Shown here: piece by piece, positions 5,225 through 35,035 of the stretch
How positions within the stretch are numbered: the first letter of the stretch is position 1
How the letters are laid out: every line of letters begins with the position of its first letter
Translations under genes and position numbers: made by a program
Source of the DNA: a candidate division KSB1 bacterium
Lineage (GTDB): Bacteria; Zhuqueibacterota; JdFR-76; DREG01
NCBI GenBank assembly: GCA_022566355.1
Contig: JADFJB010000027.1
Coordinates: 1-39,267 of the forward strand
DNA: 39,267 nucleotides
Direction of reading: 5' to 3'
Notes under the pieces: generated by a model
Databases searched by the model: none
Seen by the model: the letters and a program-made list of their open reading frames with translations, nothing else
Told to the model about the DNA's origin: nothing

Positions 5225-5254
5225 TCATCACCATCATGATTTTATTTATTTTTC

Positions 5255-6280: not shown

Positions 6281-6331
6281 TAATCGATAGCGATTTATAA
6301 GATTCCTATTCCAGGGTAACTTGACAGATAG

Positions 6332-6865
6332 CTATTCCGTGATACTTTTATTTAATTCTTCGATAACTTTGTCGGTTAAATTAGGTTGTTTGTCACTGGC
6401 ATAAAGAATGTTTCCAGCAACACTATCAAAAATAAAGTCGAAATTCTCTGCTACACCGATATCCTTAATAACCTTGTTGATTACGTCAAAAATAGGTTTC
6501 AATAATTCGTTTTGTAACTTGAAGGCATCTCCATTTTGGCCCCATTTTTGATTTTGAAATCTTTGATATGAATCGTACATCGTCTGAATTTCACGTTGCA
6601 ATTCGGTTTTTCTTTTTTCACTGAGCATTAATCCTTGTTGCTCTAACTGCTTATTCTTTTCCTGCATTGCAGTTTGCAAATCTTGCAATTCCTGCTGCCA
6701 TTCCTGATTTTTGGCATCCAATTGTTTTTGCACATCTTGGGCTCCTTTGTAGCTCGCTAATATCTTTTGAGAATCGACATATCCAAATTTTTGTTGTGCA
6801 ATTGAATTACCAACTATAAGAACACTACTGATTATAACCATCGATAATAAATTTCGAGCTTTCAC
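6332..6865 (-). CDS. skp: OmpH/Skp family periplasmic outer-membrane protein chaperone
   Basis: Small periplasmic chaperone that holds unfolded outer-membrane proteins on the way to BamA. The GTG at 6865 gives a protein of 177 residues that starts MKARNLLSMVIISS, a signal peptide with a basic start, hydrophobic core and likely cleavage after NSIA. It has an AAGGAGAG ribosome-binding site just upstream. A longer frame opening at 7006 would run into bamA and lacks a signal peptide at its front. After the FGYVDSQKIL start of the mature protein comes a long Gln/Lys/Glu-rich helical region (about 45-110) like the coiled-coil arms of Skp, then the C-terminal beta-body part with FDFIFDS. It lies 46 bp downstream of bamA, the standard neighbour. 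Confidence 0.92.
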   Translation of the reverse strand: MKARNLLSMVIISSVLIVGNSIAQQKFGYVDSQKILASYKGAQDVQKQLDAKNQEWQQELQDLQTAMQEKNKQLEQQGLMLSEKRKTELQREIQTMYDSYQRFQNQKWGQNGDAFKLQNELLKPIFDVINKVIKDIGVAENFDFIFDSVAGNILYASDKQPNLTDKVIEELNKSITE

Positions 6866-6911
6866 TTTATCACCACTCTCCTTTATTTCAAGTACTATTA
6901 ATTCACAAAAT

Positions 6912-9242: not shown

Positions 9243-9265
9243 TAGGTCTGTACCTCCAAACTATT

Positions 9266-12200
9266 TTAAAATTCAAAAAAATGTCTAATTTGAATCCGTT
9301 TATCATCTCTTTCAGTGAGAAGTAAACGATCATAATTATACTGTAGTTCCAACAACAAATTTGGGTAAATTCTATATTCCAGATCTAATGAATGTCTTAA
9401 TCCCAGGCCATCTCTCTGGTAAATTGGATCCAGCCCAACTTCTAATTGTCCCGAATATAATAGAAATACATTTTTACTGAGGTATTTGCCAACTGTCAGC
9501 TGTGTACTTCGGAAGAGTAAATACCTACGATGCCTGGTATCTATTTTGCTGTACGCATTTGAATTTAGAAATATAATATTTTTTGCAAAACTTGATCGAA
9601 ATCGAATAACATCTAAGCCCAAAGTCTGCTCTAATTTCCTTTCAACTGGGCGAAAAAGCGGTCTAAATATTAGATTGTCAGTGCTAATACCAATCACATC
9701 CTTAGCTTTATCCGGGAAACTTTGCACAGAATAACCCAAACTCGCTAAAACCTGGATTTCATTTGATCCTACTATATTAGGATTATCAGAAGACAATCTA
9801 AATCTGACATCTTCATCCCATCTACCTTTTTCTAACTCTTGTTTTGTTTCAGGATCATAAAGATACATCGTTAAATAAATATTAGATGGGATTCCCAGAG
9901 AATCAGTAAATGTTGTTCTAGCTCTACCGTAAACTATTGGGAAAATATCATTTTTATCGAACTCGGCTGCAAATTTTTCAATTCCAAAATTGAAATCCAG
10001 GTATTCAATAGTACCTCTCGTCGATTGGAGTACCCCTTCTGAACGAAAGGTATCATCCTCAAATATACCTGTGAAATGCAAATCGCTTATCGGATCGATT
10101 GTTGCATTAATCCAAATATTGTCAAAAAAACCAGGTAACTGCTTTACGTAACGAACATCCTTAACCGGCACTAAATGCACATCCCAAACCATACTATCTA
10201 GTATTTTTTCTGTCAAACTAGGCTCAAGTGGAATGGGCTCCTCAAATTCAAACGGAAAAGTAAACGCTGCATTACTGACAAAGATTTCTCCTGTTGCTAC
10301 AGGATGTTCTTCAGGACCTGATATCGTAAAATATTCCTTATTATCTTTCCCTTTAACCACGAACCACCCATTTTCATCGGGCTTCATTGCACCTGGGATA
10401 TTCAAAGGAACACCCTTTTGATCTGTTTCATCAGATTTAAAATAGATAGTTCCGAAATTAAGCCCCCATTCTGTAATGAATAAGGGATTCGAATTATTAT
10501 TATAGTTTAATGAATCAAATTTAGTAAATGCATAAAAAGAATGTTTTTTAATTGTACCACTTAAGTTAGTTACTGAAACAAATTGATTAACCGGGTTTAA
10601 TTTCACGGTTGCTTCAATATTTTCTACAACCTGGGCAATACTTTTTAATTTAACCTTTCCATTTTTCAGGAGAACTTCACCCTCCGTATAAACGGGATTG
10701 CTATAACTCCCTCCAAATTCCCATTTAAATTTTGCTTCACTCTCTGTTTCCAAAACTTCAGGCATGTCACTAAACAAAATTGCTAACGCGTCTCCCTCGC
10801 CATTAAGTCGAATGTCCATATCTAATTCAGAAGTAAATGGCAAATAGCCTGTACCTGTAATTATAAATTTTTCATTTTTTTGAATGGTAGCATTTTGAAT
10901 ATAAAGTCCGGCAAGAGTACTATCATTTTCTGACTTAGAACCGTTTGTCGACAAATAATTCCCATTTGAAGCGATTAAGTTTGGAAATTTTCCTATTTTC
11001 ATTTTTAATGTATCATATGGTATAAAAAATAACCATCCATCCCTAGCGGTGATTTCTCCGTTAATTTCAGGTTGTTTAAAACTATCTCGAATCGTTAGGT
11101 CAAAATCTCCTGAACCTTTTAGATAATCAAAGTCTTTTAAGATTAAATTCAAAACAGTCGAAATGTCTGTATCTGTTCCCTTAACCTTGACATCCAACAT
11201 CTGTTTCTTGAGATCAATAGTTCCGGTTGCTTCAAACAGAGGGTTGTCTTCTTTAAACAAATTAAGCCTTTCAATAGTAAGCTTATTTCGAACCAGGTTC
11301 AACAACGCCTCTCCGGAATAATACCCCTCTCCTTTAAAAATAATATCTGAAAAACGTAAATCACTATCTACAATTGGAGCATCCACAGATCCACTGAGAT
11401 TAATTTCGCCGTTAATTTGGCCCAGCACATCAAAACTGGGGTTAAGTAAAACACCATCCAAAATATAGATAATATCTGCATTTTTTAGCTCTAATTTACC
11501 TTCAATTTTGCGATCCCCGCTTAATTCGAGCCTTCCATTTGCAAAATAAAAATCCCCTAATTGATACTGTTTCACATTCAAATACTCAGGCCCAATCTCC
11601 AAATCCAGGTAACCGGGGATATTCCCACCAGTATCAGAATGATAAGAGATATCTCCCTGGATTTGCGTATTTTCATCAGATGAACTAAACACACCATCTA
11701 TTTTAAATAATAAATTTGATTCACCGGTATAGATTGTTCGATTTGCGTTAAGGGTATAAGTAGAATAATTCCTGTCTCCGGTTACTTCTCCGCTTAACAG
11801 CAGTAATTTTTTTAAATGATGATGAAGTGGAATGTTTGCTATTTCCCATAAATTTCCACCGAAATTTTCAAATTTGACGAAAAACTGCGGAGAATGATTA
11901 TTGAGTTTTACTTTTACATCAAGCTTGAATGGATTTTCGTCACAATCAACAATCAATTCAAAATTGTCATCATAAAAATTCAGTTTGCCCTCGATCACAG
12001 GTATCTGGCTACTGTCTAAAGTTACACCTGATATTTGAATATCAGAAAAAAATGAATACTTTTTAAAATCACTTTCAAAATGACCGTTCACATTAAATGG
12101 AAGAGTAACCAATTCTTTGTTGAGCTTTTGTGCAACTTTCTCAATTTTAGTAAGATCGCCCGAAACTTTGATATCCATAGATAATGTTGGATTCTCAGGT

Positions 12201-13477
12201 TTTATTGATATGACGCCTTTGCTATCCAGAAAAAGATTATGATAAAAACCTTTAGCTTTTTCAATCAAGAATTTGCCGGAAGAATAATTAAAATAAGTTT
12301 CCACCGAAGTAAACTTTTCACCGAAGATTTCAAAATTTGCAAGATCTATTGAACCGGAAAAAATAGGATTTTGGGTAGTATTTGTCACATGTACATCAAA
12401 ATCCGCCAATCCTTTTAAACCAATTGTTGTTTTACCTCCCCAAATTTCATTATAAACTTTTTCCAGATTTGTTTGATTCGATTGAACAGTTAAATCAAAT
12501 TCAGGATGAAAAATGTTATAAATATTTCCAGCAATTTCAAAATGGCTATCATAACAATTAAAATTACACGATATGAGTTCCAAATTCCAATCGTTAATTT
12601 TAACTTTAGAATTAAAATAATCAAGTTTCAATTTGCCTTGGAAAAGGGTCAAATCGGCGTCTGTAATAGAAATTTCACCATCCAGAGTTAAACTACCGTT
12701 TGGTTTTTCCTTTAAAACCCCACGGCCCATCAATTTTCCTTTTTCAATTTTCAATATCTTTGGATAAATCGATGGAATAGATGTTGATAAGTGGTTATCC
12801 CAAAGACTGACAGAGACGGAATCTATCCTCCCGGCCAGTAAATTAGCTTGACCTTCAAGAATTACATTTTCATTCCTTGAAGCAAACAACCTTCCGGATA
12901 GCCTCACAACAGATTTTGACATGTCTTTTGTACTTATCCAACCCTCAAGATTACTAATAAGAGATATTTCTTCATTCAAGCTATTAACCCAAACGACGGA
13001 GCCTTCTTTTATTACAAGCTTTCCAATAAAATTTATATCTAATAAGGTATTTTCATAAGTTTGTTTTAAGTTCTCCAAATCGATTTTGGGCTGTTCAGAT
13101 TTGCTATTTGGATCTTTAGTGGGATTTCTTTTTATCCGGAAAACAGGCTTTTCCAACACTACATCGGAGATAATTCGGATTGGACTAAAATTATATTTTA
13201 AGGCATTGTAGTAACTAAATCCAAATTTGAGATTTTCAATATTTAGTTGGACTGATTGTTTTGGAAGTTCTAGTGAGACTCTTTTTAATGATATTGATTT
13301 TGGAGATAAATAGAGCTTGTCAATTTTTAACTTGCCTTCAAAATATGGCTGCACCTCAGATAAAATGTATTCTTTCAATCGATCTTCAACCGAATAGCTT
13401 TTCCAGAACATAAATATCCCGATTAGAATAATTACGAATCCAATGGTTGTAAAGGATAATATTTTTCGAAATTTCAT
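9266..13477 (-). CDS. tamB: TamB/AsmA-like intermembrane bridging protein (DUF490 C-terminus)
   Basis: Very long (1403 residues) inner-membrane-anchored protein of the TamB type. Such proteins span the periplasm as a beta-groove and are linked to barrel-protein assembly and phospholipid transport to the outer membrane. There is one N-terminal membrane helix (about 8-25), then an AsmA-like start (LKIDKLYLSPKSI), more than 1000 residues of repeated beta-strand pattern rich in phrases such as GEINLSGS and GDFDLTI, and a C-terminal DUF490-type region ending in a barrel-like segment with terminal Phe. It lies directly before bamA. No tamA-like second Omp85 gene is present, so BamA itself may be the partner (inference). 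The ATG at 13477 has only a weak ribosome-binding site. Confidence 0.9.
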   Translation of the reverse strand: MKFRKILSFTTIGFVIILIGIFMFWKSYSVEDRLKEYILSEVQPYFEGKLKIDKLYLSPKSISLKRVSLELPKQSVQLNIENLKFGFSYYNALKYNFSPIRIISDVVLEKPVFRIKRNPTKDPNSKSEQPKIDLENLKQTYENTLLDINFIGKLVIKEGSVVWVNSLNEEISLISNLEGWISTKDMSKSVVRLSGRLFASRNENVILEGQANLLAGRIDSVSVSLWDNHLSTSIPSIYPKILKIEKGKLMGRGVLKEKPNGSLTLDGEISITDADLTLFQGKLKLDYFNSKVKINDWNLELISCNFNCYDSHFEIAGNIYNIFHPEFDLTVQSNQTNLEKVYNEIWGGKTTIGLKGLADFDVHVTNTTQNPIFSGSIDLANFEIFGEKFTSVETYFNYSSGKFLIEKAKGFYHNLFLDSKGVISIKPENPTLSMDIKVSGDLTKIEKVAQKLNKELVTLPFNVNGHFESDFKKYSFFSDIQISGVTLDSSQIPVIEGKLNFYDDNFELIVDCDENPFKLDVKVKLNNHSPQFFVKFENFGGNLWEIANIPLHHHLKKLLLLSGEVTGDRNYSTYTLNANRTIYTGESNLLFKIDGVFSSSDENTQIQGDISYHSDTGGNIPGYLDLEIGPEYLNVKQYQLGDFYFANGRLELSGDRKIEGKLELKNADIIYILDGVLLNPSFDVLGQINGEINLSGSVDAPIVDSDLRFSDIIFKGEGYYSGEALLNLVRNKLTIERLNLFKEDNPLFEATGTIDLKKQMLDVKVKGTDTDISTVLNLILKDFDYLKGSGDFDLTIRDSFKQPEINGEITARDGWLFFIPYDTLKMKIGKFPNLIASNGNYLSTNGSKSENDSTLAGLYIQNATIQKNEKFIITGTGYLPFTSELDMDIRLNGEGDALAILFSDMPEVLETESEAKFKWEFGGSYSNPVYTEGEVLLKNGKVKLKSIAQVVENIEATVKLNPVNQFVSVTNLSGTIKKHSFYAFTKFDSLNYNNNSNPLFITEWGLNFGTIYFKSDETDQKGVPLNIPGAMKPDENGWFVVKGKDNKEYFTISGPEEHPVATGEIFVSNAAFTFPFEFEEPIPLEPSLTEKILDSMVWDVHLVPVKDVRYVKQLPGFFDNIWINATIDPISDLHFTGIFEDDTFRSEGVLQSTRGTIEYLDFNFGIEKFAAEFDKNDIFPIVYGRARTTFTDSLGIPSNIYLTMYLYDPETKQELEKGRWDEDVRFRLSSDNPNIVGSNEIQVLASLGYSVQSFPDKAKDVIGISTDNLIFRPLFRPVERKLEQTLGLDVIRFRSSFAKNIIFLNSNAYSKIDTRHRRYLLFRSTQLTVGKYLSKNVFLLYSGQLEVGLDPIYQRDGLGLRHSLDLEYRIYPNLLLELQYNYDRLLLTERDDKRIQIRHFFEF

Positions 13478-13604
13478 TCGGTTTTATGAATTACTAAAGT
13501 TAAAGTTAAAATACTTATATGTAAACAATAGATCATTATCTCTTATTTTTTCCTTTAAGACCAACCTATTGAATATAATAAAGTTCCCCTGCTATTCATA
13601 TTTC

Positions 13605-14387
13605 TTATGATGGCAATAATTGCTCGCTGACCCTTCCATATCGTCGTTCTCTTTTCTGGTACGACTGAATAGCTTGATATAAATTATCTCTTCTGAAATC
13701 CGGCCATAGTACATCTGTTATATAGATTTCTGTATAAGCTAGTTGCCATAAAAGAAAATTACTCAAACGAGCTTCACCACTTGTTCTCACCAATAGATCT
13801 GGATCCGGCAAATTTGCCGTGTAAAGGAAATTTGAAAATAATACCTCATCAATATCATCAATGGATATTTCGCCTGATTTTACTTTTTGCGAAATTACTT
13901 TTGTTACGTCGACAATTTCTCTCCTTCCGCCATAGCTCAGGGCGAGATTTAGTGTTAATCCAGTACAATGTTGAGTCTTTTCAATCGCATAATTCAAACT
14001 TTTTCGAGTAAGTAAAGGCAAATCTTCTAATTGGCCAATCGTTATTAAACGAACATTATTTTTAATTAAATCATTTAACTCATCTCTAATAGTATTGACC
14101 AATAAATGCATCAATGCACTAACTTCATCACGGGGACGTTTCCAATTCTCCATTGAAAAAGTATACAATGTAAGAATATCAATTTCTAATTCAGCGCACG
14201 CTTCAACGACGTCACGAACTGATTTAATAGCTTCCCGATGGCCTTTTACACGATTCAAACCTCGTTGCCCAGCCCATCTGCCATTCCCATCCATAATAAC
14301 AGCGATATGGCGAGGTAAATTATCGGCATTTTTTAGTTGATTTAGAATTTCTTCATTTTTTGTCATTTTTTGCACTTTTTTTATCAT
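13605..14387 (-). CDS. uppS: Undecaprenyl (polyprenyl) diphosphate synthase, cis-type
   Basis: Cytoplasmic cis-prenyltransferase that builds the C55 lipid carrier for peptidoglycan and surface polysaccharides from isopentenyl diphosphate. Family motifs are HIAVIMDGNGRWA with the catalytic aspartate at about residue 33, GHREA, TLYTFSMENWKRP, LSYGGRREI, and PDLLVRTSGEARLSNF. The C-terminal block VLWPDF is also present. At 260 residues it is slightly longer than usual because of the N-terminus; a second in-frame ATG at 14366 is an equally plausible start and neither has a clear Shine-Dalgarno box. In many bacteria cdsA follows uppS, but here tamB does. Confidence 0.97.
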   Translation of the reverse strand: MIKKVQKMTKNEEILNQLKNADNLPRHIAVIMDGNGRWAGQRGLNRVKGHREAIKSVRDVVEACAELEIDILTLYTFSMENWKRPRDEVSALMHLLVNTIRDELNDLIKNNVRLITIGQLEDLPLLTRKSLNYAIEKTQHCTGLTLNLALSYGGRREIVDVTKVISQKVKSGEISIDDIDEVLFSNFLYTANLPDPDLLVRTSGEARLSNFLLWQLAYTEIYITDVLWPDFRRDNLYQAIQSYQKRERRYGRVSEQLLPS

Positions 14388-23487: not shown

Positions 23488-25050
23488 TTATTTTGGATCC
23501 AATTTAAGGACAGGCAGAATTATTTCCTCCATCGAAACACCACCATGTTGAAAGCTGTCTTTGTAATAATTCAAATATTTATGGTAATTTGTAGGGTAAA
23601 CAAAATAATAATCTTCTCTTGCAATTATATAATGAACATTAACACCCCTAGCAGGCAATTTATAATCCTTTGGATTTTTTACCATGATTGCATGTTTAGA
23701 ATCACACTTAATATTTCTGCCAAATTTGTACCGTAAATTTGTTGATGTTTCACGATCACCAATAACTTTAGCACCTCTCATGCTGCGAATACTTCCATGA
23801 TCCGATGTCATCACCACAGTAACATCTTCTTGGGCCAACAGCCTCAAAACTCTGAATAAAAAAGAATGGGTAAACCATGAGCGGGTTAAGGATCGAAATG
23901 CAGCTTCATCAGGTACGATTTCTTTAAGAATATCAGATGTACTGCGGTTATGCGCAAAAATATCTACGATATTGACGACAACAGAGAGTAAAGGCGACTG
24001 TAAATAAGAGGCTAGATTTTTCTCCAGGTTTTTACCCTCCTGGCTGTCTAAAATTTTGATGTACTTGGGTTCCGGTTTTAAATCCAAACCTTTCGATTTT
24101 AGTTGTAAGTCTAACAACTGCCTTTCATATCTATTCCGACTAAAATCATCTTCACTTCCATTTGTCCATAAATCTTTGTATTTACTTTCAACTTCACTGG
24201 GAAAAAGCCCACTAAAAATTGCATTCCTGGAATATGGTGTTGCTGTGGGAAGTATTGAATAATAATAATCTTTTCTAATATGAAAATATGGAAAAAGTAA
24301 TGATTCGATCGCCAGCCATTGGTCCAATCGCATATTATCAATTATGATAAAAACTATTTTCTTCCCTCCTTCAATTAAAGGAATAATATGTTTGCTAACT
24401 ATTTGGTGTGATAAAACCGGGGCATCGCTGCTGCCATTGACCCATTGTATATAGTTCGCTTCAAAGAATCGCCCAAAATCAATGTTACAGGATCTCTTTT
24501 GTTCGAATAGTACTTCCCCAAGACCTAAATCCGGGTGCTGTTCAAGCTCAATCTCCAAACCGACTAACTTTTGGTATACTTCTAGCCAATCTTGCCAGTT
24601 TAAGAAATCCATCATTTTTGTTACGATGGCGTGGAACTCCTGGGTGTAATCTTTTGTAAATCTATCCCCTGTAATTTTTTGTCTTTCAAGTATCTTTTTA
24701 CAAGTCAGAAGAATTTGACTTGGGTTAACCGGTTTTGTCAGGTAATCATCGATTTTACTCCCAATCGCATCTTCCATTAATGATTCTTCTTCATTCTTTG
24801 TAATCATTACTACTGGCAAAGAAGGATTGATTTCTTTTATCTCCACCAAGGCCTCCAAACCGCCTTTGCCACTCATCATTTCATCAAGTAGAACAAGATC
24901 AAAACTCTCTTGATGTAACAATGCAATCGCATCATCTGCGTTGGTCACCGGTGTTACTAAATATCCTTTCTCTTTTAGGAATAAAATGTGAGATCTGAGA
25001 AGTTCAATCTCGTCGTCAACCCAAAGAATTTTTCCTTTTATCAGATCCAT
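23488..25050 (-). CDS. porX: PorX-like response regulator with PglZ domain (type IX secretion regulator)
   Basis: Cytoplasmic two-domain regulator of 520 residues, close to the roughly 520 of PorX, which controls the T9SS in Bacteroidetes. The receiver domain (about 5-125) has the acidic pair WVDDE, the phospho-acceptor D56 in LVLLDEMM and the lysine in YLTKPVNP. A helical linker leads to a PglZ/alkaline-phosphatase-superfamily domain. Its likely metal site comprises the aspartate in IIDNMRLDQW (about 238), a threonine in TATPYSR (about 269-271) and TSDHGS, and it ends near SFQHGGVSMEE. The ATG at 25050 gives the PorX-like start MDLIKGKILWVDDE; a longer TTG start at 25089 is possible. It heads the long minus-strand block. 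A T9SS cargo is encoded at 35036, so the system is plausible here. No PorY kinase is in the window. Confidence 0.9.
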   Translation of the reverse strand: MDLIKGKILWVDDEIELLRSHILFLKEKGYLVTPVTNADDAIALLHQESFDLVLLDEMMSGKGGLEALVEIKEINPSLPVVMITKNEEESLMEDAIGSKIDDYLTKPVNPSQILLTCKKILERQKITGDRFTKDYTQEFHAIVTKMMDFLNWQDWLEVYQKLVGLEIELEQHPDLGLGEVLFEQKRSCNIDFGRFFEANYIQWVNGSSDAPVLSHQIVSKHIIPLIEGGKKIVFIIIDNMRLDQWLAIESLLFPYFHIRKDYYYSILPTATPYSRNAIFSGLFPSEVESKYKDLWTNGSEDDFSRNRYERQLLDLQLKSKGLDLKPEPKYIKILDSQEGKNLEKNLASYLQSPLLSVVVNIVDIFAHNRSTSDILKEIVPDEAAFRSLTRSWFTHSFLFRVLRLLAQEDVTVVMTSDHGSIRSMRGAKVIGDRETSTNLRYKFGRNIKCDSKHAIMVKNPKDYKLPARGVNVHYIIAREDYYFVYPTNYHKYLNYYKDSFQHGGVSMEEIILPVLKLDPK

Positions 25051-25179
25051 AATTCTAAAATAACCCAGTAAGTGTTTACTCCTAGCCAATATCTCAATTA
25101 TTGAAGTCCTATGTTAATAAAATTCTGCAGCATTTTCAATACTTTCTAACTTTCACACAAACATAAAATGTTGCACAAC

Positions 25180-25382: not shown

Positions 25383-25565
25383 ACTAACCTGGATAATTCA
25401 TAGCCACCAAGACTCAAAGACACAAAGCTTTAAAAAATAAAGGTTAAGAAAGATTGATTTTTTATATTGACCGAAAATTTATTCATAGTAATCTTATTTA
25501 TAACTTTAATATTTTTAGTGACTTAGTGTCTTTGTGGCAAGAATTCATGAATAGTGCAGGCTAAT
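25383..25565. repeat. MITE-like inverted-repeat element, copy 1
   Basis: About 183 bp with imperfect inverted ends. The left end reads ACTAACCTGGATAATTCATA and the right end, reversed and complemented, ATTAGCCTGCACTATTCATG (14 of 20 match). Just inside, a second inverted pair continues the arms: GCCACCAAGACTCAAAG (from 25403) against GCCACAAAGACACTAAG (complement of 25522-25538), 14 of 17. The inner motif is a short AAAGACAC-type repeat. The outer ends are shared with copy 2 at 34598-34778, which has a different core but nearly the same length. It has no coding capacity. It ends 33 bp before the next start codon and could influence both divergent genes. Confidence 0.65.
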
Positions 25566-25598
25566 TATCCAAATACTATTTTTCTCGTAAAGGAGATT

Positions 25599-27941
25599 AT
25601 GTCCACTCAAAGCACCGACAAAATAAGCAGCCGATTCCTCAATTATATCAAGCAATACCCTCATCTTAAAAATAAACTTTTCCGCCAGCTTCTCATAGCT
25701 CTTCACACCCGTGAAATTGTAACAATTGACCAAATTTATTCTGAAGCCAAAAAAGGTGGATTTCCATCCTCAAATAATCCGAACAGGAATATTTCAAAGC
25801 GAAGCCGGTGGGACGAGAAAGAAAAGGGCCTAATACAAAATATCACCCTGGAATATGCCAATAAACACCTAACAGAAAATGATATTGATCGAATAGTTGC
25901 TTTATCCCAACGCCGGCATGCAGCCAAAGCACTTGAAGATATCCTGAGTCTGCCTAATGTATCTTATAAATTGTTGGCTGACAAAGTTGAAGAATTTTGT
26001 CAACCTACAGAATATAAACAATCCTTGCCAGAAGCTGAAGAAATTGGAATTCGAGCTGCATTGATTCGTCATTTTATTAGCGACCAGTTAGAATTTATTG
26101 GAATTGCAAAATACAATTTCAAAATCGAAGATATGGTTCCAATTATTCGAAGGTCTTTTGGCCCTAAAACCGGGATTGGCAAAATTGGCGGAAAAGCGGC
26201 AGGAATGTATTTAGCATTTAATATATTGCGAGAGGCATTAAAAGAAAACGGATCAAAAAATAATTCCTGGAATATTAAAATTCCGGAAACTTATTTTATT
26301 CGCTCTGATGCATACCAGGAATTCATTCACACCAACGGCTTAACGGGATTCTATGACGAAAAGTACAAGCCGATGTACCAGGTTCGTCAAGATTATCCTA
26401 TGATCCGTGAGATGTTTAAAAACGCTGAATTCCCTCCACGAATTGTAAAAAAATTATCTAAACTACTTAAAATGTTTGGCAATCAGCCTCTAATTGTTAG
26501 ATCAAGCAGCCATTTGGAAGATAATTTCGGGTCCACATTCTCAGGAAAATACGATAGTATCTTCTTAGCCAACCAGGGAGATTTTAATGATCGTTTAGCA
26601 TCATTGTTGGATGCGATTGCCAGTGTCTATGCAAGCACCTTAGGACCGGATCCGATTCTATATCGCCGTGAAAGGAACCTGATTGATTATGATGAAAGAA
26701 TGGGGATTATGATTCAGAAAGTAATCGGAATTAGATACAGAAATTATTTTCTTCCGACTTTTAGCGGCGTCGCATTTTCCAGGAATGAATATAGATGGAA
26801 TAAGAAAATTCGAAAAGAAGATGGCTTTGTTCGTTTGGTAATGGGTTTGGGAACCAGGGCTGTAGATCGCGTTGGTTCGGATTATCCAAGGATGGTTGCA
26901 CTTTCCGCCCCTACACTTCGCCCTGAGTCCTCTGCATCCGCCATGCAAAAATATTCACAGCGATATATTGATTTAATTGATTTGGAGGAAAATTCATTTT
27001 CTCATAAGAAAATTACCGAATTATTGGATGAAAATACTGTATTCCCCGATTTGGATAAAATTGTTTCCATAAAGCAAGAAGATTCACTCATGCCACCCAT
27101 AGGAACATTGATATCTGAAAGTCCGGATAAATTAGTGATCACCTTTGGAAAACTTCTCGCAGAATTACCGTTTGCACAAAATATGCGTTGGATTTTACAA
27201 ACTCTCGAAAAAAAGTATCAAACCCCTATAGATTTGGAATTCGCGATTGACGGAAATGATTTTTATATTCTGCAATGTCGACCCATAAAAAAAATTGCAC
27301 CGAATAAACCTGTAAAAATACCCATGAATATATCCAATGAATCATTAATTTTTTCAGCCGAAAAAGATACTCCGATGGGTATTGTTGAAAATATCGAATA
27401 CATCATTTTTATAGATCCACTGGACTACAACCGAATCGACAAACCTGAAAACAAATCAATGTTAGGCAAATTAATCAGTCAATTAAATGACCAATTATAT
27501 AATCATACATTTATTTTGATGGGACCAGGGAGATGGGGAAGTAATGATATTAACCTGGGTATTCCGGTAAGATATAGTGATATCCACAATACCAAGGTAC
27601 TAATAGAGATTGCCAGGGTAAAAGAAGGTTATACTCCCGAGGTTTCTTTTGGTACACACTTTTTCCAGGATTTGGTTGAGGCCGATATTTTTTACCTTCC
27701 TTTATACCCGGATGACCCTCAGGTGATCTTCAATGAGAATTTCTTACATAAGTCTGAAAATTTAATTTTGGAATATCTACCCAATTATCCTGAATTTGCA
27801 GAATATCTGCGTTTGATTCACGTTCCAAGTGCTTCCAACGGCAAATACCTGCAATTACATATGGATAGTGATAGTGATAAAGCAATTTCTTTTCTTAGCA
27901 ATAAGGTTGAAAAACTAGTTCCCCCTATCAGGATAATTTAA
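25599..27941 (+). CDS. PEP/pyruvate-binding (PPDK N-terminal type) protein with an unassigned C-terminal domain
   Basis: A 780-residue cytoplasmic protein. Residues 1 to about 180 are helical and unassigned. The nucleotide-binding domain of PEP synthase/pyruvate phosphate dikinase follows, with GGKAAG (197-202), VRSSSHLED and the FGSTFSGKYDS loop (from 300), SGVAFSRNE, and IDLEFAIDG ending in ILQCRPI (557-563). In PEP synthase a phosphohistidine domain with a TSH motif and a PEP-binding barrel would come next. Both are missing. Instead about 200 residues contain GPGRWGS (642-648), DINLGIPVRYSD and GTHFFQDLVEAD, which I do not recognise as a named domain. It is therefore unlikely to be a complete PEP synthase. 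The ATG at 25599 has AAAGGAG three bases upstream. It converges on the cyclase gene with a 9 bp gap. Confidence 0.8.
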   Translation: MSTQSTDKISSRFLNYIKQYPHLKNKLFRQLLIALHTREIVTIDQIYSEAKKGGFPSSNNPNRNISKRSRWDEKEKGLIQNITLEYANKHLTENDIDRIVALSQRRHAAKALEDILSLPNVSYKLLADKVEEFCQPTEYKQSLPEAEEIGIRAALIRHFISDQLEFIGIAKYNFKIEDMVPIIRRSFGPKTGIGKIGGKAAGMYLAFNILREALKENGSKNNSWNIKIPETYFIRSDAYQEFIHTNGLTGFYDEKYKPMYQVRQDYPMIREMFKNAEFPPRIVKKLSKLLKMFGNQPLIVRSSSHLEDNFGSTFSGKYDSIFLANQGDFNDRLASLLDAIASVYASTLGPDPILYRRERNLIDYDERMGIMIQKVIGIRYRNYFLPTFSGVAFSRNEYRWNKKIRKEDGFVRLVMGLGTRAVDRVGSDYPRMVALSAPTLRPESSASAMQKYSQRYIDLIDLEENSFSHKKITELLDENTVFPDLDKIVSIKQEDSLMPPIGTLISESPDKLVITFGKLLAELPFAQNMRWILQTLEKKYQTPIDLEFAIDGNDFYILQCRPIKKIAPNKPVKIPMNISNESLIFSAEKDTPMGIVENIEYIIFIDPLDYNRIDKPENKSMLGKLISQLNDQLYNHTFILMGPGRWGSNDINLGIPVRYSDIHNTKVLIEIARVKEGYTPEVSFGTHFFQDLVEADIFYLPLYPDDPQVIFNENFLHKSENLILEYLPNYPEFAEYLRLIHVPSASNGKYLQLHMDSDSDKAISFLSNKVEKLVPPIRII

Positions 27942-27962
27942 AATTTTATCCTATTTTGTTTC
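27930..27962 (+). terminator. Weak hairpin terminator candidate after the PEP-binding gene
   Basis: AGGATAA (27930-27936) and TTATCCT (27946-27952) form a 7 bp stem with a 9 base loop, followed by a T-rich tail. It spans the stop codon and the last codons of the convergent cyclase gene. The stem is AT-rich, so efficiency is doubtful. Confidence 0.35.
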
Positions 27963-30068
27963 AAATTTTATGACAGGCTCCCATTCTTCGGTCGGTGGAT
28001 TTTCCATAAGATCTAAACATCTACGAATATAGAGTTTTGCCGGTCCATCTGTTGGGAATTCTTTCAAAATTTTATTCATATCTCTCAGGCAATTATACCA
28101 TTTTTTATCATAATAATAATTGAGCGCTTGATTATACAGGTTTACACGCAGATCCATGACAATATCCGGAACTTTATCAATTCCTATCAACTCAAATATT
28201 CGGATTGGTTTATCTTTACCTTTGACTTTTACAGAATCCAATTCACGAGAGATTATTGAATTGCCAACAGACTGTTTGGTAAATTCCGAAATGATAATTC
28301 TCGTTCCATAATATTTATTGAGGCCCTCCAATCTCGCACCTAAGTTGACCGCATCACCAATTACCGTATAATCAAATAATTGCTGAGAACCAAGGTTACC
28401 GACAACCATATCTCCAGTATTAACTCCAACGCCAATATCAAAGTAATCAGCTCCGTTATTACTTGTATAAACTTGTCTCATCTCATTCAATTTTTCGATC
28501 ATTTTAAAAGCAGTGCGACAAGCTTGTTCCGCATGATTCTCATAGTAATGAGGCGCCCCATAGATTGCCATGATCTCGTCGCCGACAAATTTGTCAAGCG
28601 TACCATTGTGTTGAAGGACGATTTCAGTCATCTCAGTCAAATATTCCGATAGTTTATTCACAACCTCTTCAGGAGTTAATTTTTCTGAAAAATTTGTGAA
28701 TGATCTTATATCTGAAAAAAGTACTGTTAATTCTTTACGCTCACCACCGTACTGAGGTGATGATCCGGAATCGAGCATTTCTTGGACTACACTCTTCGAA
28801 ACATATTTCTGAAATGTCTGGCGAATTCGATTCTTTTCTCTTTGCTCCGTTATATACAAATACGCTGAATTACCCAGGTAACTAAACACAATGGCAAATA
28901 TGGGTGTAAAGGTATTAGCCATTAAACTGTAGGAGGAAAACAAATAATATGTTCCTACGGCTGCGCCTAATATTAAGAATAAGGTAACGATCCCGCCTTT
29001 TAAGGGTTTTAGCCATCTAACCAAAACCGTTACTAATAGTACCAGAATTGGGATTAAAATTAATTGAATGTTCGCCGATAGCGTATTTAAAAATTGCCGG
29101 GTTAAAAGGGTATTGAGGGCATGGGCATGTACCTCTACCCCTGTCATTATTTGTTCATCCCGATGTTTATCAAAAAAAGGTACAAATTTAATATCGTGAA
29201 ATTCAGGTGAAGTGCCGCCAATAAAAACGATTTTATTTTGAAATGTACCCCAAACATATTTGTGTAAATCAAAAATGTCCGTATCATTCTCGCCAAGATC
29301 AAACTCTTCATCATCCAGAATATTCACAAAAGAAAAGTGTTTAAAGGTCTCGTTTGGGCCGGCATAATTAATATAGAAGGAATTACCTTGTACAATCGGA
29401 ATTTTATTGTCCCCCATTAAAAAATGATCTTCACTGTTGTTTATTTGAGAGTCAGTGAGATTCCATAAAAATTTAGCGGTTAGAGTTCCAAGTGAATAAT
29501 AAAGAACACTATTTAGAGAAATTCCAAATATATATTGTCTAACGAAACCATCCGCGTCTTCAGGAATATTCACTAATCCCCATGGTATGGGGTTTAAACT
29601 ATCGGGTTTTGAAATTGGATCAACCGGGTCAACTAAGTATCTATTCACTGTACCGGACCGAGCGACATCCTCCACTAGTTTACCAGCGAAAATCACATTA
29701 CCAGCTTCTCTGGCAGCTTGCGCCAATTCTATATCCTGATTTACATCCAATTCATAAGGTTCGGTGAATTCAATATCAAAGATAATGATACGAGCCCCTG
29801 CTTCAGATAAATTACGAATTAATTTCGCATAATAATTTCGAGGATATGGGAACCTTCTAGGAATTGATTTAAAAGTTTGGTCATCGATACCAACAATAAC
29901 TATAGATGTATCTATATTTGCAAGTGGACCTCTCAGGCGAAAATGTAAGTCTCGAACTTTCAGTTCCAGGTTATTGATAAATGTCAATTGAGAGAATATA
30001 AATGTGATTAGAATGGCACCAAATGCAACAGAGGTAAATCCAATTCTATTTTTGACTTTTTGATTCAT
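27951..30068 (-). CDS. CHASE2-domain class III adenylate/guanylate cyclase
   Basis: Inner-membrane sensor cyclase of 705 residues. A first membrane helix (about 11-30) leads to a periplasmic CHASE2 sensor (about 35-340, with VIVGIDDQTF, IIIFDIEF and VFIGGTSPEFHDIK). Three membrane helices follow (about 345-425), then a short linker (QKYVSKSVVQEML) and the class III cyclase domain (about 440-620). Metal-binding aspartates lie in VLFSDIRSF and VGDEIMAIYG. FDYTVIGDAVNLGARLE carries the substrate and transition-state residues, with Lys in LDKFVGD, more consistent with ATP than GTP. A helical TPR-like tail ends the protein. It is the last gene of the operon with the barrel, FecR and Ig-like genes, 51 bp after the barrel gene. 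The signal sensed and the output are unknown. Confidence 0.9.
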   Translation of the reverse strand: MNQKVKNRIGFTSVAFGAILITFIFSQLTFINNLELKVRDLHFRLRGPLANIDTSIVIVGIDDQTFKSIPRRFPYPRNYYAKLIRNLSEAGARIIIFDIEFTEPYELDVNQDIELAQAAREAGNVIFAGKLVEDVARSGTVNRYLVDPVDPISKPDSLNPIPWGLVNIPEDADGFVRQYIFGISLNSVLYYSLGTLTAKFLWNLTDSQINNSEDHFLMGDNKIPIVQGNSFYINYAGPNETFKHFSFVNILDDEEFDLGENDTDIFDLHKYVWGTFQNKIVFIGGTSPEFHDIKFVPFFDKHRDEQIMTGVEVHAHALNTLLTRQFLNTLSANIQLILIPILVLLVTVLVRWLKPLKGGIVTLFLILGAAVGTYYLFSSYSLMANTFTPIFAIVFSYLGNSAYLYITEQREKNRIRQTFQKYVSKSVVQEMLDSGSSPQYGGERKELTVLFSDIRSFTNFSEKLTPEEVVNKLSEYLTEMTEIVLQHNGTLDKFVGDEIMAIYGAPHYYENHAEQACRTAFKMIEKLNEMRQVYTSNNGADYFDIGVGVNTGDMVVGNLGSQQLFDYTVIGDAVNLGARLEGLNKYYGTRIIISEFTKQSVGNSIISRELDSVKVKGKDKPIRIFELIGIDKVPDIVMDLRVNLYNQALNYYYDKKWYNCLRDMNKILKEFPTDGPAKLYIRRCLDLMENPPTEEWEPVIKFETK

Positions 30069-30119
30069 TATTAACTTAAATAATCAAATAAATATTATCC
30101 TACTGACTACATTTTGCAA

Positions 30120-32597
30120 TCAAAATCGTGATTCAAAACGAATTCTGAATGTACGGTCTTTAAATGAATTATTCTGAGTAAATTGACCATTTGAATCTGT
30201 AATACCACCATTATCAGAATAATCAATAATGGTTCCATCAAAAACCAAGGCTGATTTTGCAGAAACGTCAATCCTTCCGCCAAAATTCAAATTGTTCTTT
30301 GTATAATCAATGACCAATACATCTGCTTGCGGGCTAAGAGCTCCGGTTCCACCTTCAGCTTCAAACCGTCCGTAACCAGCATATAATGTCAACTTATTTT
30401 GTAGAGCTTTATATTCAGCTCTTAAATTTAACATTTTAAATTTAAATTGGGAAAGGCCACCAATCGAATTGTTTTTATTCTCTGAATAACTAATTCTTGT
30501 TGTTAACGGTTGTCTAAATTTGGTTTTCAATGAAAAAGATTGGATATCATTATTTATCCCTATTGGGAGGCTACTACCTAAACGTGAATTTACGAAAACA
30601 TCGTTCTTATCCATAGTCACATAACTTATATTTATTGTGTTGTCCAGATCAAATAGTAGAAAATCATGACTTAGGCTAACAGTAATATCCTTTGTGGTAT
30701 TGTCCTCACGGTTATCAAATTCTACATTGTTTATAAATTTAGTAGCTGTAATTTTATTGTCTCGATTATAGGATTTAAAATTCACAGTCAAATTGGGTAA
30801 ACCATTACCCGGGAATAAATTAACACCTCCACGAAATGTTCGTAACGCTATGGTAGGATTATTATCTTCGGCTTTAAAATTGTCATCATAATTTTCATAA
30901 CTAAGATTGAGATAAACACGATTTTTGAATAGACGAACCCGGTCTGAAATTTTCAATCCTCTGACATTTGATTTTAAGAATGAATTGGCCAGTGAATTGT
31001 ATGCAGCGCCAATGCTTTTGTATTTTATCCTGAAATTATGCCGGGCGGCTCTTATTTGAATAGATGACGAATAAGCCCCGGAAGTGAAATCAGTCGGATC
31101 GAGTGGAGTCGTGCTTAAATTAATGATTAGGATATCTTCATAATCGGCCGGATCAAAACCCACATCCGTATCAATCAGATCTTCAATATCCTGTTTCGAA
31201 AGGGGTCCGGAAGATATATCATCGGTCAAGAGACTTACGGCGATTTCGGTTTTCCACCTGAAACGATTTTTAAATAAAGAGATGAGAAGATCGGCGCCAC
31301 CGATCACATTATCCTTGGGGCGTAATCCTCCGCTGATGGATTCCACATCATCTTTTACTTTAACAGCGCTCAGTCCAAATTGAAAATTTTTACCACTGCC
31401 AAAGCTGGTTCGAAGCCCCCGAAGGTTTCTTTCAAAAGTTCCCGATGAAGTTGTACCTGGACTTATTGAACGATTCACCTTACCCATTACAAAATCAAAG
31501 TTGATGAATTTTAAATTTAGCTGCGCTTCGAATCCACGCACTCTCTTACCCCACAACATTAACTGTGAAAATCTTGGTGATGTATCACCGACATATAAAT
31601 TAACTATACCGGTTTCAACCCAAAACAAGAACCGGTGTCTTGGTTGAAAAACCTTGTCTTCCAAGGAGGTTAGATATACCCTGGAGCCGTATTTTATTTT
31701 TCCGGAATTTCCACGAATTCGTGCTCCTATTTGGTGGTTATTACGCTCATTTCCACTATATTTATCAACTTTAGATTCTATAAAAACACTGCCCGACATG
31801 ATTTTACTAGAGGGTCTACTTACTGTAGTACCTCTTGCAACAGCAGCTTGTGTTCCTGTTACTTGGAAATTCCATTGAATCGGTTTATAAGGATTACCGT
31901 TTGCATCAAATAAATTGACTTGAATGGTGTGAGCACCCACCGGTAAGAATGCCGGCGCGTAGGTGATCAGATCTGAAGTAATCTCAGCAACGACTATGCT
32001 ACCATCTAAATAAAGCTGGGATCGAGTTGAATCAAACGCTGATGCATCAAGAAATACCGATACGGCGATGAAGACATCCTCGGGTGCAACTTTTTCCCCG
32101 GGCTCAGGACCAAGTACCAGATAATCTTCATCGCTTAGGTCTTGGCTTGCCTGTGGAGTAACTGTTGGAGTCTCGATCGTTGCTGGAGTGTCAGATCGAG
32201 GGGTTATTTGAATCGAAAAAGGGTTAAAATAGGGATCACTAACCGGTAAAGTGATAATCTCTGAACCTTTAATAAAGGAAAAAAAGTATTCAATTTTATC
32301 AGCAGAAAATGGGAATGCTGGTAACCTTCCCCGAAATTCGTTGCCAATATTATCTAAAATAATATATTCATAAGAATCTTCACCCGAAACACGGTAGTAA
32401 ACCCGCATTTCATCACCCGAAGTAAACTCACCATCTACTTGAACCATAAGTTCTATAGGCTTGTTTTCTTCAGCCTGGAAGATTTGATCATGTATCAATC
32501 TTACTTGTGCATATGATAAAGACGTAATTGTTAAGAAAAGTAAAAACAAAATCAGACATTTGCCGCTCAACGAAAAAGCGATTGTGAATTTTCTCAT
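30120..32597 (-). CDS. Putative outer-membrane beta-barrel protein with N-terminal Ig-like domains
   Basis: An 825-residue exported protein that I cannot assign to a named family. A signal peptide (about 1-30, ending SYAQ) precedes two beta-sandwich-like regions. The first (about 35-130, VYYRVSGEDSYEYIIL) resembles domains that describe differences in Ig-fold secreted proteins. A Thr/Pro-rich linker and a second Ig-like region (about 155-245, PVGAHTIQVNLFDANG) follow. From about 265 to the end there are alternating amphipathic strands with many aromatic residues, such as YGSRVYLTSLEDK, RFLFWVETGIVNLYVG and KLTLYAGYGRFEAEG. The final stretch FRIRFESRF ends in Phe, as outer-membrane barrels do. 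It starts 4 bp after the FecR stop. A surface or channel role is inferred only from topology. Confidence 0.7.
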   Translation of the reverse strand: MRKFTIAFSLSGKCLILFLLFLTITSLSYAQVRLIHDQIFQAEENKPIELMVQVDGEFTSGDEMRVYYRVSGEDSYEYIILDNIGNEFRGRLPAFPFSADKIEYFFSFIKGSEIITLPVSDPYFNPFSIQITPRSDTPATIETPTVTPQASQDLSDEDYLVLGPEPGEKVAPEDVFIAVSVFLDASAFDSTRSQLYLDGSIVVAEITSDLITYAPAFLPVGAHTIQVNLFDANGNPYKPIQWNFQVTGTQAAVARGTTVSRPSSKIMSGSVFIESKVDKYSGNERNNHQIGARIRGNSGKIKYGSRVYLTSLEDKVFQPRHRFLFWVETGIVNLYVGDTSPRFSQLMLWGKRVRGFEAQLNLKFINFDFVMGKVNRSISPGTTSSGTFERNLRGLRTSFGSGKNFQFGLSAVKVKDDVESISGGLRPKDNVIGGADLLISLFKNRFRWKTEIAVSLLTDDISSGPLSKQDIEDLIDTDVGFDPADYEDILIINLSTTPLDPTDFTSGAYSSSIQIRAARHNFRIKYKSIGAAYNSLANSFLKSNVRGLKISDRVRLFKNRVYLNLSYENYDDNFKAEDNNPTIALRTFRGGVNLFPGNGLPNLTVNFKSYNRDNKITATKFINNVEFDNREDNTTKDITVSLSHDFLLFDLDNTINISYVTMDKNDVFVNSRLGSSLPIGINNDIQSFSLKTKFRQPLTTRISYSENKNNSIGGLSQFKFKMLNLRAEYKALQNKLTLYAGYGRFEAEGGTGALSPQADVLVIDYTKNNLNFGGRIDVSAKSALVFDGTIIDYSDNGGITDSNGQFTQNNSFKDRTFRIRFESRF

Positions 32598-32601
32598 ATG
32601 C

Positions 32602-33276
32602 CTATTGCTCCTGATCTTCTTGTTGAATGATCAAATTTTTAATAGCTCCTTTTGCATCTCGAAATTCAATGCTAAAACCCTGGGCACCTTGAAATTCTGC
32701 TGGAAGATTGTTATTCTGAGTATTTTGCACATCAATATTTTGGCCATCTGATTTGCCAGTCTGACCCGCAACAATTTGGGATTGTGCGAATTGGTTTGCC
32801 AAATCGACAATGCCATCGAAAACAGTCAGGAATAAAGCTTTTAATGTTTCATCAATTCTTGCGAGGCCGGATGTGCCTTTTATAGTAGCAACCCCGTATG
32901 GAGTTTCCAATCGTATGGCCGTTTTTTGCCTCTTCCGAACATTAAAAAACAAAAGACCTGATGTCATTTCGATTCTTTTTACGATGGATTTATCTTCTTT
33001 CTTGCCATGAATCGTAATATTGGAATTTCCCCAAATCCGCATCAATGTTTTATCATCCGTAAAAACCAGGGCGGCTTGTCCAGCTTTTCCGGTTCTGAGA
33101 ACGTCTCCGTTTTTAAAACGGCTGCCTTTTTTCCCTTTCTGAAAGTTTGTGGAATTTTGTTTTTTAACTTCCACATCTCCTTTGGATTTAAATAGTAATG
33201 CAATATTTTGAGCCTGGGATAAGTTAGCGAAAAAGAGCACTAATAAGCTGGTTAAGAGAATTGTTTTTCGTTTCAT
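32602..33276 (-). CDS. FecR-domain periplasmic protein
   Basis: Exported protein of 224 residues. A signal peptide (about 1-22, ending SQAQ) precedes a FecR-type beta domain: GDVEVKKQ, GSRFKNGDVLRTGKAGQAALVF, GLLFFNV, and ETPYGVATIKGTSGLARID with a following FDGIVDLAN. The tail is Gln/Asn-rich and polar. Classical FecR is an inner-membrane anti-sigma regulator with a cytoplasmic start and a nearby sigma factor. This one has no cytoplasmic part and no sigma gene beside it, so it is probably a periplasmic or envelope component. It lies 15 bp after the Ig-like gene (GAGG box before the ATG) and 4 bp before the barrel gene. Confidence 0.87.
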   Translation of the reverse strand: MKRKTILLTSLLVLFFANLSQAQNIALLFKSKGDVEVKKQNSTNFQKGKKGSRFKNGDVLRTGKAGQAALVFTDDKTLMRIWGNSNITIHGKKEDKSIVKRIEMTSGLLFFNVRKRQKTAIRLETPYGVATIKGTSGLARIDETLKALFLTVFDGIVDLANQFAQSQIVAGQTGKSDGQNIDVQNTQNNNLPAEFQGAQGFSIEFRDAKGAIKNLIIQQEDQEQ

Positions 33277-33291
33277 TTTCTTGCCTCTAAA

Positions 33292-34374
33292 TTATTGTAT
33301 GGTTGAACTTGTTTGTTGGTTTTGGGCTATCCAATTTTCAATTGCTGTTTTTAATTCTTCCAAAGAACTGGGTTGACCATCTTTTGTAACCACTCCGGAA
33401 GGAACAAAACCCATTAGCTTATCCGGATCACTAAACCAGCTGTCGACTTCAGTTTGACCATATAAATCATAAAGCAAACCTTTAATGATTTCCAACTGAG
33501 AGTTGCCGGCAAGATCGCCCGGAGAACCGACTTTAAAAGCGTAGGCCTCACTTTTAAATGAATCAAAATCCGGCCCTCCGGAAGTTTGAACATTTAGTTG
33601 AATACGCCATAAGTATATTTTACCAGCTTCAAAAGGAAAAAATTCTGACTGAGGTGTAAAAGTATTTACACCACCAATAAGATTCTCATTAATCAGAGGA
33701 AGACTGTTGAAAGCTGCTTCCTGGTCATCCCCATCTGGCCATTCAACTACAATCAAGTTAATATCTGTACTATTTGTATCCCACGAAAAAGTTGGATTGG
33801 AGAAATAAATTATCGGGATATCCGGATCATACTGGCTTTGAGGATCAGGAATTCCAGGTGAAATTAATTGCACGAGTGTTGGATTTCCTGGATTAATGGT
33901 AAGAATTGTCTCGTCTTCCGGATTCGAATTTTCTACTAAAACTATACCTATTACAAACTGATACACTTTACTTGGCAAGGCGCCAAGCTGTGCAATTTGC
34001 TGTGCTAATCCGCTTACTTCGCTATCTTCAATTGAATAATAATCCATAGCATAAGGAGAAGCACCGAGGTTCTGGTTAGTTATTACCGTGACGCCAGGCG
34101 ATAATCCGAACACTACAGTTGCCCCTTCAGCTAACAAAACGTTATCTGCAAAAATATTAAATGTTAGGACTACGTTTACAACTGCTTGACCCGTATTAGA
34201 CATGGTAATTTGAACCCAAGCAGAGGAACCAGGATCCATTAGGTTAAGGTCATTCAAAAAGAATACCTCAATGGCAGAAAGAAAGACAGCGTCAATAGTA
34301 ATATCCGCCTTAGAATTAGAAAAACCGAACTGGGCAAAAATCAAAAAAACGAAAATGAGTTTAAATCGTTTCAT
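33292..34374 (-). CDS. Secreted protein of unknown function with Ig/FN3-like regions
   Basis: A 360-residue exported protein I do not recognise. It has a signal peptide (about 1-22, FGFSNSKA) and a region like an Ig or CARDB fold (about 45-110, WVQITMSNTGQAVVNV). A second beta-rich region (about 180-290) has paired Trp/Tyr positions such as NPTFSWDTN and GKIYLWRIQL, as in fibronectin-type folds. A helical C-terminus of about 70 residues follows (LEIIKGLLYDLYGQTEVDSWF) and ends Gln/Thr-rich. There is no sorting domain or lipobox. It is the first gene of the four-gene operon; its ATG has a GGAGAT box upstream. Because it is co-transcribed with FecR, barrel and cyclase genes it is probably the periplasmic or surface part of the same system (inference). 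Confidence 0.75.
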   Translation of the reverse strand: MKRFKLIFVFLIFAQFGFSNSKADITIDAVFLSAIEVFFLNDLNLMDPGSSAWVQITMSNTGQAVVNVVLTFNIFADNVLLAEGATVVFGLSPGVTVITNQNLGASPYAMDYYSIEDSEVSGLAQQIAQLGALPSKVYQFVIGIVLVENSNPEDETILTINPGNPTLVQLISPGIPDPQSQYDPDIPIIYFSNPTFSWDTNSTDINLIVVEWPDGDDQEAAFNSLPLINENLIGGVNTFTPQSEFFPFEAGKIYLWRIQLNVQTSGGPDFDSFKSEAYAFKVGSPGDLAGNSQLEIIKGLLYDLYGQTEVDSWFSDPDKLMGFVPSGVVTKDGQPSSLEELKTAIENWIAQNQQTSSTIQ

Positions 34375-34410
34375 AATTAAATCTCCATTTAAATAGTTTT
34401 ATTTTGCATT

Positions 34411-34439
34411 ATTTTAAAATAGATGTAAATAATGTGTAA
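34411..34439 (-). promoter_or_regulatory. Possible promoter of the Ig-like/FecR/barrel/cyclase operon
   Basis: Minus-strand TTACAC (34439-34434) and TAAAAT (34416-34411) are 17 bp apart. This would start transcription near 34404, giving a leader of about 30 bases that includes the GGAGAT ribosome-binding site. The match is moderate and the region AT-rich. Confidence 0.35.
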
Positions 34440-34597
34440 TTCTTGGGATATTTATCATTGCTACAAGTTTATGAATTTATAGTAATATTTGGTAAGAATA
34501 AGAAATTATTTTTAAAAAAACAAGTACTTAGAGTATTTTTTTGAATTAAATACCAAATTACGATTTCATAAATTTTACCATTTATTGTAATTCATCA

Positions 34598-34778
34598 ATT
34601 AACCTGGACTATTCACAAACTTTTTCACCGTCATCCAGAAGGGATTTATTTTGCAACTATTTTATACTTACGATTATGCTTTTTCAAATTTTATGGAAAT
34701 AGATCCCGTCGCGTGACGGGATGACAACTTTGGAAACTTCAAGCTTAAAATTATAATTTATGAATTATCCAAGTTAAC
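34598..34778. repeat. MITE-like inverted-repeat element, copy 2
   Basis: 181 bp with inverted ends. The left end ATTAACCTGGACTATTCACA and the complement of the right end GTTAACTTGGATAATTCATA match at 14 of 20, and three more A residues follow in both. Inside, each arm carries a related block, GTCATCC to GGGATTTATTT on the left and its inverted partner on the right. The right one contains a perfect 8 bp hairpin, ATCCCGTC (34703-34710) with loop GCGT and GACGGGAT (34715-34722). The outer ends match copy 1 at 25383-25565, while the cores differ. No reading frame of note. Confidence 0.65.
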
Positions 34779-34798
34779 AGCTATTCTAAATGATAATC

Positions 34799-34836
34799 AG
34801 GGTAGGCTGATCTAAAGATTTCAGTCCTGCGGTTAG
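34799..34836. other. Imperfect stem-loop of unknown role
   Basis: CAGGGTAGGCTGA and TCAGTCCTG can pair imperfectly around the loop TCTAAAGATT. An overlapping alternative pairs ATCTAA with TTAGAT further right. It is the only GC-richer spot in this AT-rich stretch. It could be a decayed repeat or a terminator remnant; there is no evidence of function. Confidence 0.25.
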
Positions 34837-35035
34837 ATTAATAATATAATTTGAAAGATTGATCATATTATTGTTGATAATTTAGCTTAGTTCATTCATA
34901 GTATTTGTTTCTAACTTATTGGAACTAAATCATTTACTTTGGGTAATAATTTTTAATAAATTTATTGAGATAATCATCATAATTTATAAACTCACGCCAT
35001 CCAGTCCAGCCATTTTAATTATTCCAGGAAATTAT

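Follow-up and report, generated by a model that had tools for sequence, protein, structure and literature searches.

The question raised by this locus is whether four adjacent genes of a candidate division KSB1 bacterium, located in a DNA stretch of 39,267 nt (GCA_022566355.1, JADFJB010000027.1; the whole stretch is referred to below as the window, and the phylum of this bacterium as its own phylum), make up one signalling system that spans the cell envelope. In the order of transcription the genes encode an exported immunoglobulin-like (Ig-like) protein (Ig_A), a small FecR-domain protein (FecR_B), a predicted outer-membrane barrel (barrel_C) and a CHASE2 cyclase (cyc_D). A preliminary description of this DNA had proposed an envelope sensing unit feeding a signal to cyclic AMP (cAMP) synthesis, including a surface barrel with Ig domains and no characterised counterpart. 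The four genes are strongly supported as a genomic unit because their order is conserved across phyla, their cyclases belong to one clade and the genes co-occur even where they are not linked; these observations and the analogy with NsrA-CyaK of the plant symbiont Sinorhizobium meliloti uphold the sensing unit, while the surface placement of the Ig domains and the lack of a known counterpart do not stand. The four genes probably represent one conserved trans-envelope signalling module working like NsrA-CyaK, with a split receptor and an added Ig-like protein.

Open reading frame (ORF) calls confirmed four genes on the minus strand, separated by gaps of 15, 4 and 51 bp, at the positions described before (Table 1). 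The barrel had a strong match in 38 of 59 own-phylum genomes, representing 15 families; in these 38 genomes the barrel gene was adjoined by FecR in 35, by CHASE2 in 33 and by at least one of the two in 37, and several of the exceptions end at contig borders. All four genes were found in identical order and strand at 24 loci (BLAST). Of 41 loci, 35 have a homologue of Ig_A encoded upstream of FecR. Clustering of the neighbouring genes placed each of the four in 34-41 loci and the next commonest neighbour in only 14, and the four genes are therefore regarded as the unit.

Beyond its own phylum, the full cassette was present on contigs of Ignavibacteria (L058), Bacteroidetes (L060), Spirochaetes (L061) and Cloacimonadota (L059, L077). 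The barrel model matched in 108 of 396 Bacteroidota genomes sampled (some of these matches being weak and partial), 91 of 125 from Cloacimonadota and 6 of 296 from Spirochaetota. Among the best loci, FecR lay upstream of the barrel in every case (29/29 in Bacteroidota, 29/29 in Cloacimonadota and 5/5 in Spirochaetota), and the cyclase followed the barrel in 28/29, 15/29 and 5/5, respectively; the Ig gene was present in 28 of the 29 best Cloacimonadota loci, and the cassette was complete in all five from Spirochaetota. The arrangement is not due to chance, since several phyla share the gene order but differ in the flanking genes. The gene-neighbourhood search that the preliminary description had called for thus revealed conserved order in distant genomes, and a restriction of the adjacency to close relatives is rejected by its recurrence in its own phylum, Ignavibacteria/Bacteroidota, Cloacimonadota and Spirochaetota. 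As a separate observation, loci of family f16 (L035, L036, L039, L056) carry a large tetratricopeptide repeat (TPR) gene of ~1480-1633 aa directly after the cyclase, with a CHAT domain in the L036 copy.

Regarding the cyclases, a branch with a Shimodaira-Hasegawa approximate likelihood ratio (SH-aLRT) of 100 in a tree of 101 CHASE2 cyclases separates all 44 operon-linked sequences and nine unlinked ones, of which eight are from Cloacimonadota and one is from Bacteroidota, from FecR-only and all other CHASE2 cyclases, which lie outside this operon-type clade. The clade was kept (SH-aLRT 99) in a second tree to which cyclases from own-phylum genomes without an obvious barrel-linked copy had been added; both are quick trees without bootstrap. 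Five of the unlinked clade members come from Cloacimonadota genomes (G597-G601) in which the Ig-FecR-barrel trio lies on another contig, and CHASE2 proteins were present in all 34 Cloacimonadota genomes searched. The clade members of G001, G028, G033, G042 and G055 come from genomes that also carry the barrel, either on the contig of the cyclase or on a different one, G039, G043 and G052 have only cyclases of a different clade, and the sole exception is G026 (L270), which has a clade cyclase on a very long branch and neither barrel nor FecR detected, possibly as a result of drift after loss of the partners.

These distributions bear on the explanation that co-transcription is all that the four envelope genes share and that CHASE2 senses a ligand of its own without the other three. 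Neither barrel nor FecR is found near 55 of the 95 CHASE2 matches in its own phylum, and CHASE2 proteins can therefore work alone; the operon-type cyclases, however, make up a clade of their own that goes with the trio in several phyla, and NsrA-CyaK shows that a CHASE2 cyclase can depend on an outer-membrane protein, which leaves this explanation very improbable. A cyclase that occurs mostly alone is the rule for other CHASE2 clades, and is rejected for the operon-type clade by both trees. CHASE2 is a widespread sensor domain with unknown ligands (PMC10581220). The tie between the operon-type clade and barrel plus FecR across phyla suggests that such CHASE2 cyclases may read outer-membrane partners, not free small ligands. 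Two further types were observed in the same searches: a second CHASE2 cyclase of ~716-754 aa from the same phyla, in a separate clade and with no FecR or barrel nearby (L255-L261, L265, L267-L269, L282, L283), and another FecR-CHASE2 cyclase pair with a FecR of ~330 aa (L262, L263), in genomes that also have the four-gene operon.

Table 1. Positions of the four operon genes and of other features in the window.
Feature	Position	Strand	Description
Ig_A	33292..34374	-	360 aa, exported Ig-like protein; two Ig-like domains and C-terminal helical domain
FecR_B	32602..33276	-	224 aa, small exported (periplasmic) FecR-domain protein
barrel_C	30120..32597	-	825 aa, outer-membrane protein; Ig-like domains ~33-132 and ~159-246; ~26 barrel strands, 267-824
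cyc_D	27951..30068	-	705 aa, inner-membrane CHASE2 class III adenylate cyclase
Intergenic, 5' of operon, presumed promoter side	34375..34918	-	best promoter-like matches 34777-34750 and 34687-34659 (consensus scan)
PPDK_N-domain protein	25554-27941	+	convergent with operon
PorX-like gene	23488-25089	-	receiver and PglZ domain; downstream of cyc_D
Envelope biogenesis cluster	43-14387	-	RseP-like protease, DXR, LpxC-FabZ, LpxD, BamA, UppS, unassigned 1403-aa protein

Pfam recognises in cyc_D a CHASE2 domain (PF05226, E=9.4e-50) and, C-terminal to it, Guanylate_cyc (PF00211, E=1.1e-24); the predicted layout is a periplasmic CHASE2 region at residues 20-345, transmembrane segments and a cytoplasmic catalytic domain at 445-621. 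Hydrophobic segments lie around CHASE2, one at the N-terminus and about three in the centre of the protein; here as in the other proteins, membrane segments and signal peptides were judged from hydropathy only. All 26 homologues compared keep D453, K493, D497, T568, N575 and R579, and at least 90% of them keep K618; D453 and D497 are the metal residues, and K493/T568 make up what we take to be the Lys/Thr pair associated with class IIIb adenylate cyclases. For the catalytic domain, alignments were obtained with the adenylate cyclases 2w01 and CyaB. The cyc_D protein, the sole CHASE2 protein found in this genome with profile models, thus appears to be a class IIIb cyclase with a complete set of catalytic residues, and presumably produces cAMP.

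The three products encoded upstream of cyc_D have signal-peptide-like N-termini, in agreement with the preliminary description, and no lipobox was detected in any of the three. FecR_B has the FecR domain PF04773 (E=5.9e-12) at residues 58-157 as its only Pfam match above cut-off, with no anti-sigma or other FecR-type domain, and profile models detected no second FecR protein in this genome. The predicted structure of Ig_A (AlphaFold2, predicted local distance difference test (pLDDT) 84) shows two Ig-like domains with a helical part after them; Ig_A had no Pfam match above cut-off, none of the 27 members of its family had one at E<=0.01, its fold search returned only generic Ig and fibronectin type III (FnIII) matches, and no close relatives of either FecR_B or Ig_A were found in the PDB. 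Ig_A and barrel_C represent two unnamed protein families. Just upstream of the Ig gene, loci of family f10 (L029, L030, L025, L040) have a short gene for an M50-type (site-2) protease; in L040, where no intervening Ig gene was found, the protease gene comes before FecR.

Barrel_C had no Pfam match above cut-off, and its family of 26 homologues yielded only four weak ones. The AlphaFold2 model built on these homologues (pLDDT 79) has two Ig-like domains followed by ~26 long barrel strands, its Foldseek matches are outer-membrane barrels, and most family members end in F as the C-terminal residue. Since the Ig domains precede the outer-membrane barrel, they are predicted to be periplasmic, and not exposed at the surface as described before. 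The best fold match was the conduit MtrB (6r2q_B, template modelling (TM) scores 0.42/0.52), and one of the 26 family members has a weak match to the MtrB/PioB family (PF11854, E=0.0033). The window barrel_C itself, however, has no PF11854 match and no sequence match to the solved MtrB, carries additional N-terminal Ig domains and is encoded in an operon without a cytochrome gene, the search for multihaem cytochromes in the four genes and their immediate neighbours being negative. Membership of barrel_C in the MtrB family is rejected, the resemblance being one of fold with no family match. The first Ig domain of the barrel family (residues ~30-115) weakly matches the Ig domain of the Porphyromonas peptidylarginine deiminase (E 2e-5).

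A barrel of ~26 strands with a conduit as its best fold match could also belong to a machine, in that the trio would serve mainly in outer-membrane transport, export or assembly while the cyclase is an accessory reporting on or gated by the trio, with cAMP as feedback. The trio is commonly found without an adjacent cyclase in Cloacimonadota, the Ignavibacteria operon has DXR-RseP genes next to it, and the window contains a BamA/LpxC/LpxD/UppS cluster. Yet the clade cyclase is still present in the genomes checked when it is unlinked, the clade cyclase and the barrel co-occur in its own phylum except in G026, and no transporter partner recurs in the operon, so that such a machine appears unlikely. 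Regarding these biogenesis genes, the window cluster is listed in Table 1, and DXR-RseP stand directly upstream of the Ig gene in L058 and L060 (Ignavibacteria/Bacteroidota).

Under the preferred reading, that of a trans-envelope signalling module, barrel_C with its periplasmic Ig domains would sense either a ligand from outside or whether it is itself assembled or occupied. FecR_B, with Ig_A as a further periplasmic adaptor, would then link the state of the barrel to CHASE2, a step suggested because FecR and barrel-like regions are fused in other phyla: one chain combines FecR, TPRs and a barrel-like C-terminal region (L062) and another FecR and a barrel-like C-terminal region (L090), the barrel parts being recognised by inspection. 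CHASE2 would in turn control the class IIIb cyclase, which has intact residues and may synthesise cAMP in the cytoplasm. We infer the location of each part, the barrel as the receiving end, the relay to CHASE2 by FecR and Ig_A and the cAMP output.

FecR, with or without Ig_A, may act in the opposite sense, as a periplasmic inhibitor of CHASE2 that is titrated by the barrel, and the system would then be an envelope-stress sensor, not a ligand receptor. This variant is a sub-case of the sensing module and compatible with the preferred reading; FecR is a small soluble protein whose gene stands between those for Ig and barrel, the operon lies near envelope biogenesis genes, and general knowledge of other envelope-stress sensors provides an analogy. 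In the only tested cousin, however, NsrA is needed for signalling and does not restrain it (PMC7529298), and the inhibitor variant is considered doubtful.

Three observations weigh against a signalling module of the NsrA-CyaK type. A search with the barrel model (A1) gave no match at E<=1 in the putative barrel part of the NsrA candidate. In some Cloacimonadota the cyclase and the trio are not linked, which is explained in part by the ends of contigs. No recognisable Crp-type transcription factor was detected in this genome (98.5% complete, G000): its only two cyclic nucleotide (cNMP)-binding proteins (144 aa and 550 aa; L137, L138) both lack the Crp helix-turn-helix (HTH), and HTH_Crp appeared only as a sub-threshold fragment, in a search in which 47 of 59 own-phylum genomes had it above cut-off.

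Regarding the surroundings of the operon, the adjoining genes encode a PPDK_N-like protein and an LVIVD protein (Pfam). As described before, neither a sigma factor nor a TonB receptor is encoded among the genes neighbouring the operon. Only the same-order genomes G005 and G006 retain the adjacency of the convergent PPDK_N gene. The PorX-like gene is on the same strand as cyc_D, and six own-phylum loci (families f1, f4, f7, f9) have such a gene ~1.4-4.3 kb downstream of the cyclase; PorX is a response regulator of the type IX secretion system (T9SS) with phosphodiesterase activity (PMC11320123). Upstream of the operon, the consensus scan found 34 promoter-like matches against 27.8 expected in shuffles, which is no evidence of function, and a terminator scan gave nothing informative.

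Among known systems, FecI-FecR-FecA likewise couples a FecR-domain protein to an outer-membrane barrel. The operon, however, has no extracytoplasmic function (ECF) sigma factor, no inner-membrane-anchored FecR with a cytoplasmic anti-sigma domain and no TonB-dependent receptor, and its predicted output is cAMP; membership in this system is rejected, since FecR_B starts with a signal peptide, contains only PF04773 and has neither a sigma factor nor a TonB-dependent receptor gene adjacent to it. Many other phyla also have a FecR gene next to a CHASE2 cyclase gene. In Campylobacterota, a CHASE2 adenylate cyclase is clustered with genes for a FecR-domain outer-membrane protein, TPRs and a phosphodiesterase (PMC9239204). 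Phosphodiesterase and TPR genes are absent next to the window operon, unlike in this cluster, and the Campylobacterota cyclases fall outside the operon-type clade in the tree. In magnetotactic bacteria, mtxA, encoding an exported protein with an Ig-like domain, lies just before a CHASE2 cyclase gene, but MtxA ends in TPRs, FecR is unmentioned in the paper and deletion of mtxA had no visible phenotype (PMC4439547).

The closest counterpart is NsrA-CyaK of S. meliloti, and the published Campylobacterota and mtxA neighbourhoods further contradict the preliminary view that no characterised system has such a composition. NsrA is an outer-membrane barrel protein needed to perceive a signal, with a ribosomal protein as the candidate, via the CHASE2 cyclases CyaK and CyaD1/D2 (PMC7529298, PMC13001267). 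Directly upstream of cyaK is a gene for a 1190-aa FecR-TPR protein annotated only as a FecR domain-containing protein, the C-terminal half of which fits a barrel; on its position, length and domains it is here taken to be nsrA, and FecR, TPR and barrel are fused in L287 and L288, as judged by Pfam and length. In both systems the genes for an outer-membrane protein and a FecR domain immediately precede, in the same orientation, that for a CHASE2 class III adenylate cyclase. The FecR parts are homologous, since the FecR_B family model matches FecR-TPR proteins encoded before CyaK-type cyclases (E ~1e-20 to 1e-24), the window cyclase combines CHASE2 with a class III domain with intact catalytic residues in a predicted inner-membrane location, and the window encodes an outer-membrane beta-barrel as indicated by structure prediction. 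In contrast to the single chain of FecR, TPRs and putative barrel in S. meliloti, FecR and barrel are separate ORFs in the window, Ig domains take the place of the TPRs, the set is enlarged by an exported Ig protein, and the operon-type cyclases are in another clade than the sampled FecR-linked CHASE2 cyclases (CyaK not being in the tree).

A wider reading, which we put forward tentatively as possible but short of probable, is that of an ancient, vertically inherited receptor complex of the Fibrobacterota-Chlorobiota-Bacteroidota (FCB) lineages, in which a wide, ~26-strand barrel with periplasmic Ig domains, an exported Ig protein, a soluble FecR and a CHASE2 cyclase would form a trans-envelope receptor class of its own. 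Its design would resemble those of NsrA-CyaK and FecA-FecR, whereas its barrel would be unrelated to theirs and several periplasmic proteins would make up the relay. Through this self-contained four-gene system, a design studied so far in one case only, NsrA-CyaK, is extended to FCB lineages; the pathway from the outer membrane to cAMP is itself known from that case, and what is added here is the variant with split FecR and barrel and an exported Ig-like protein.

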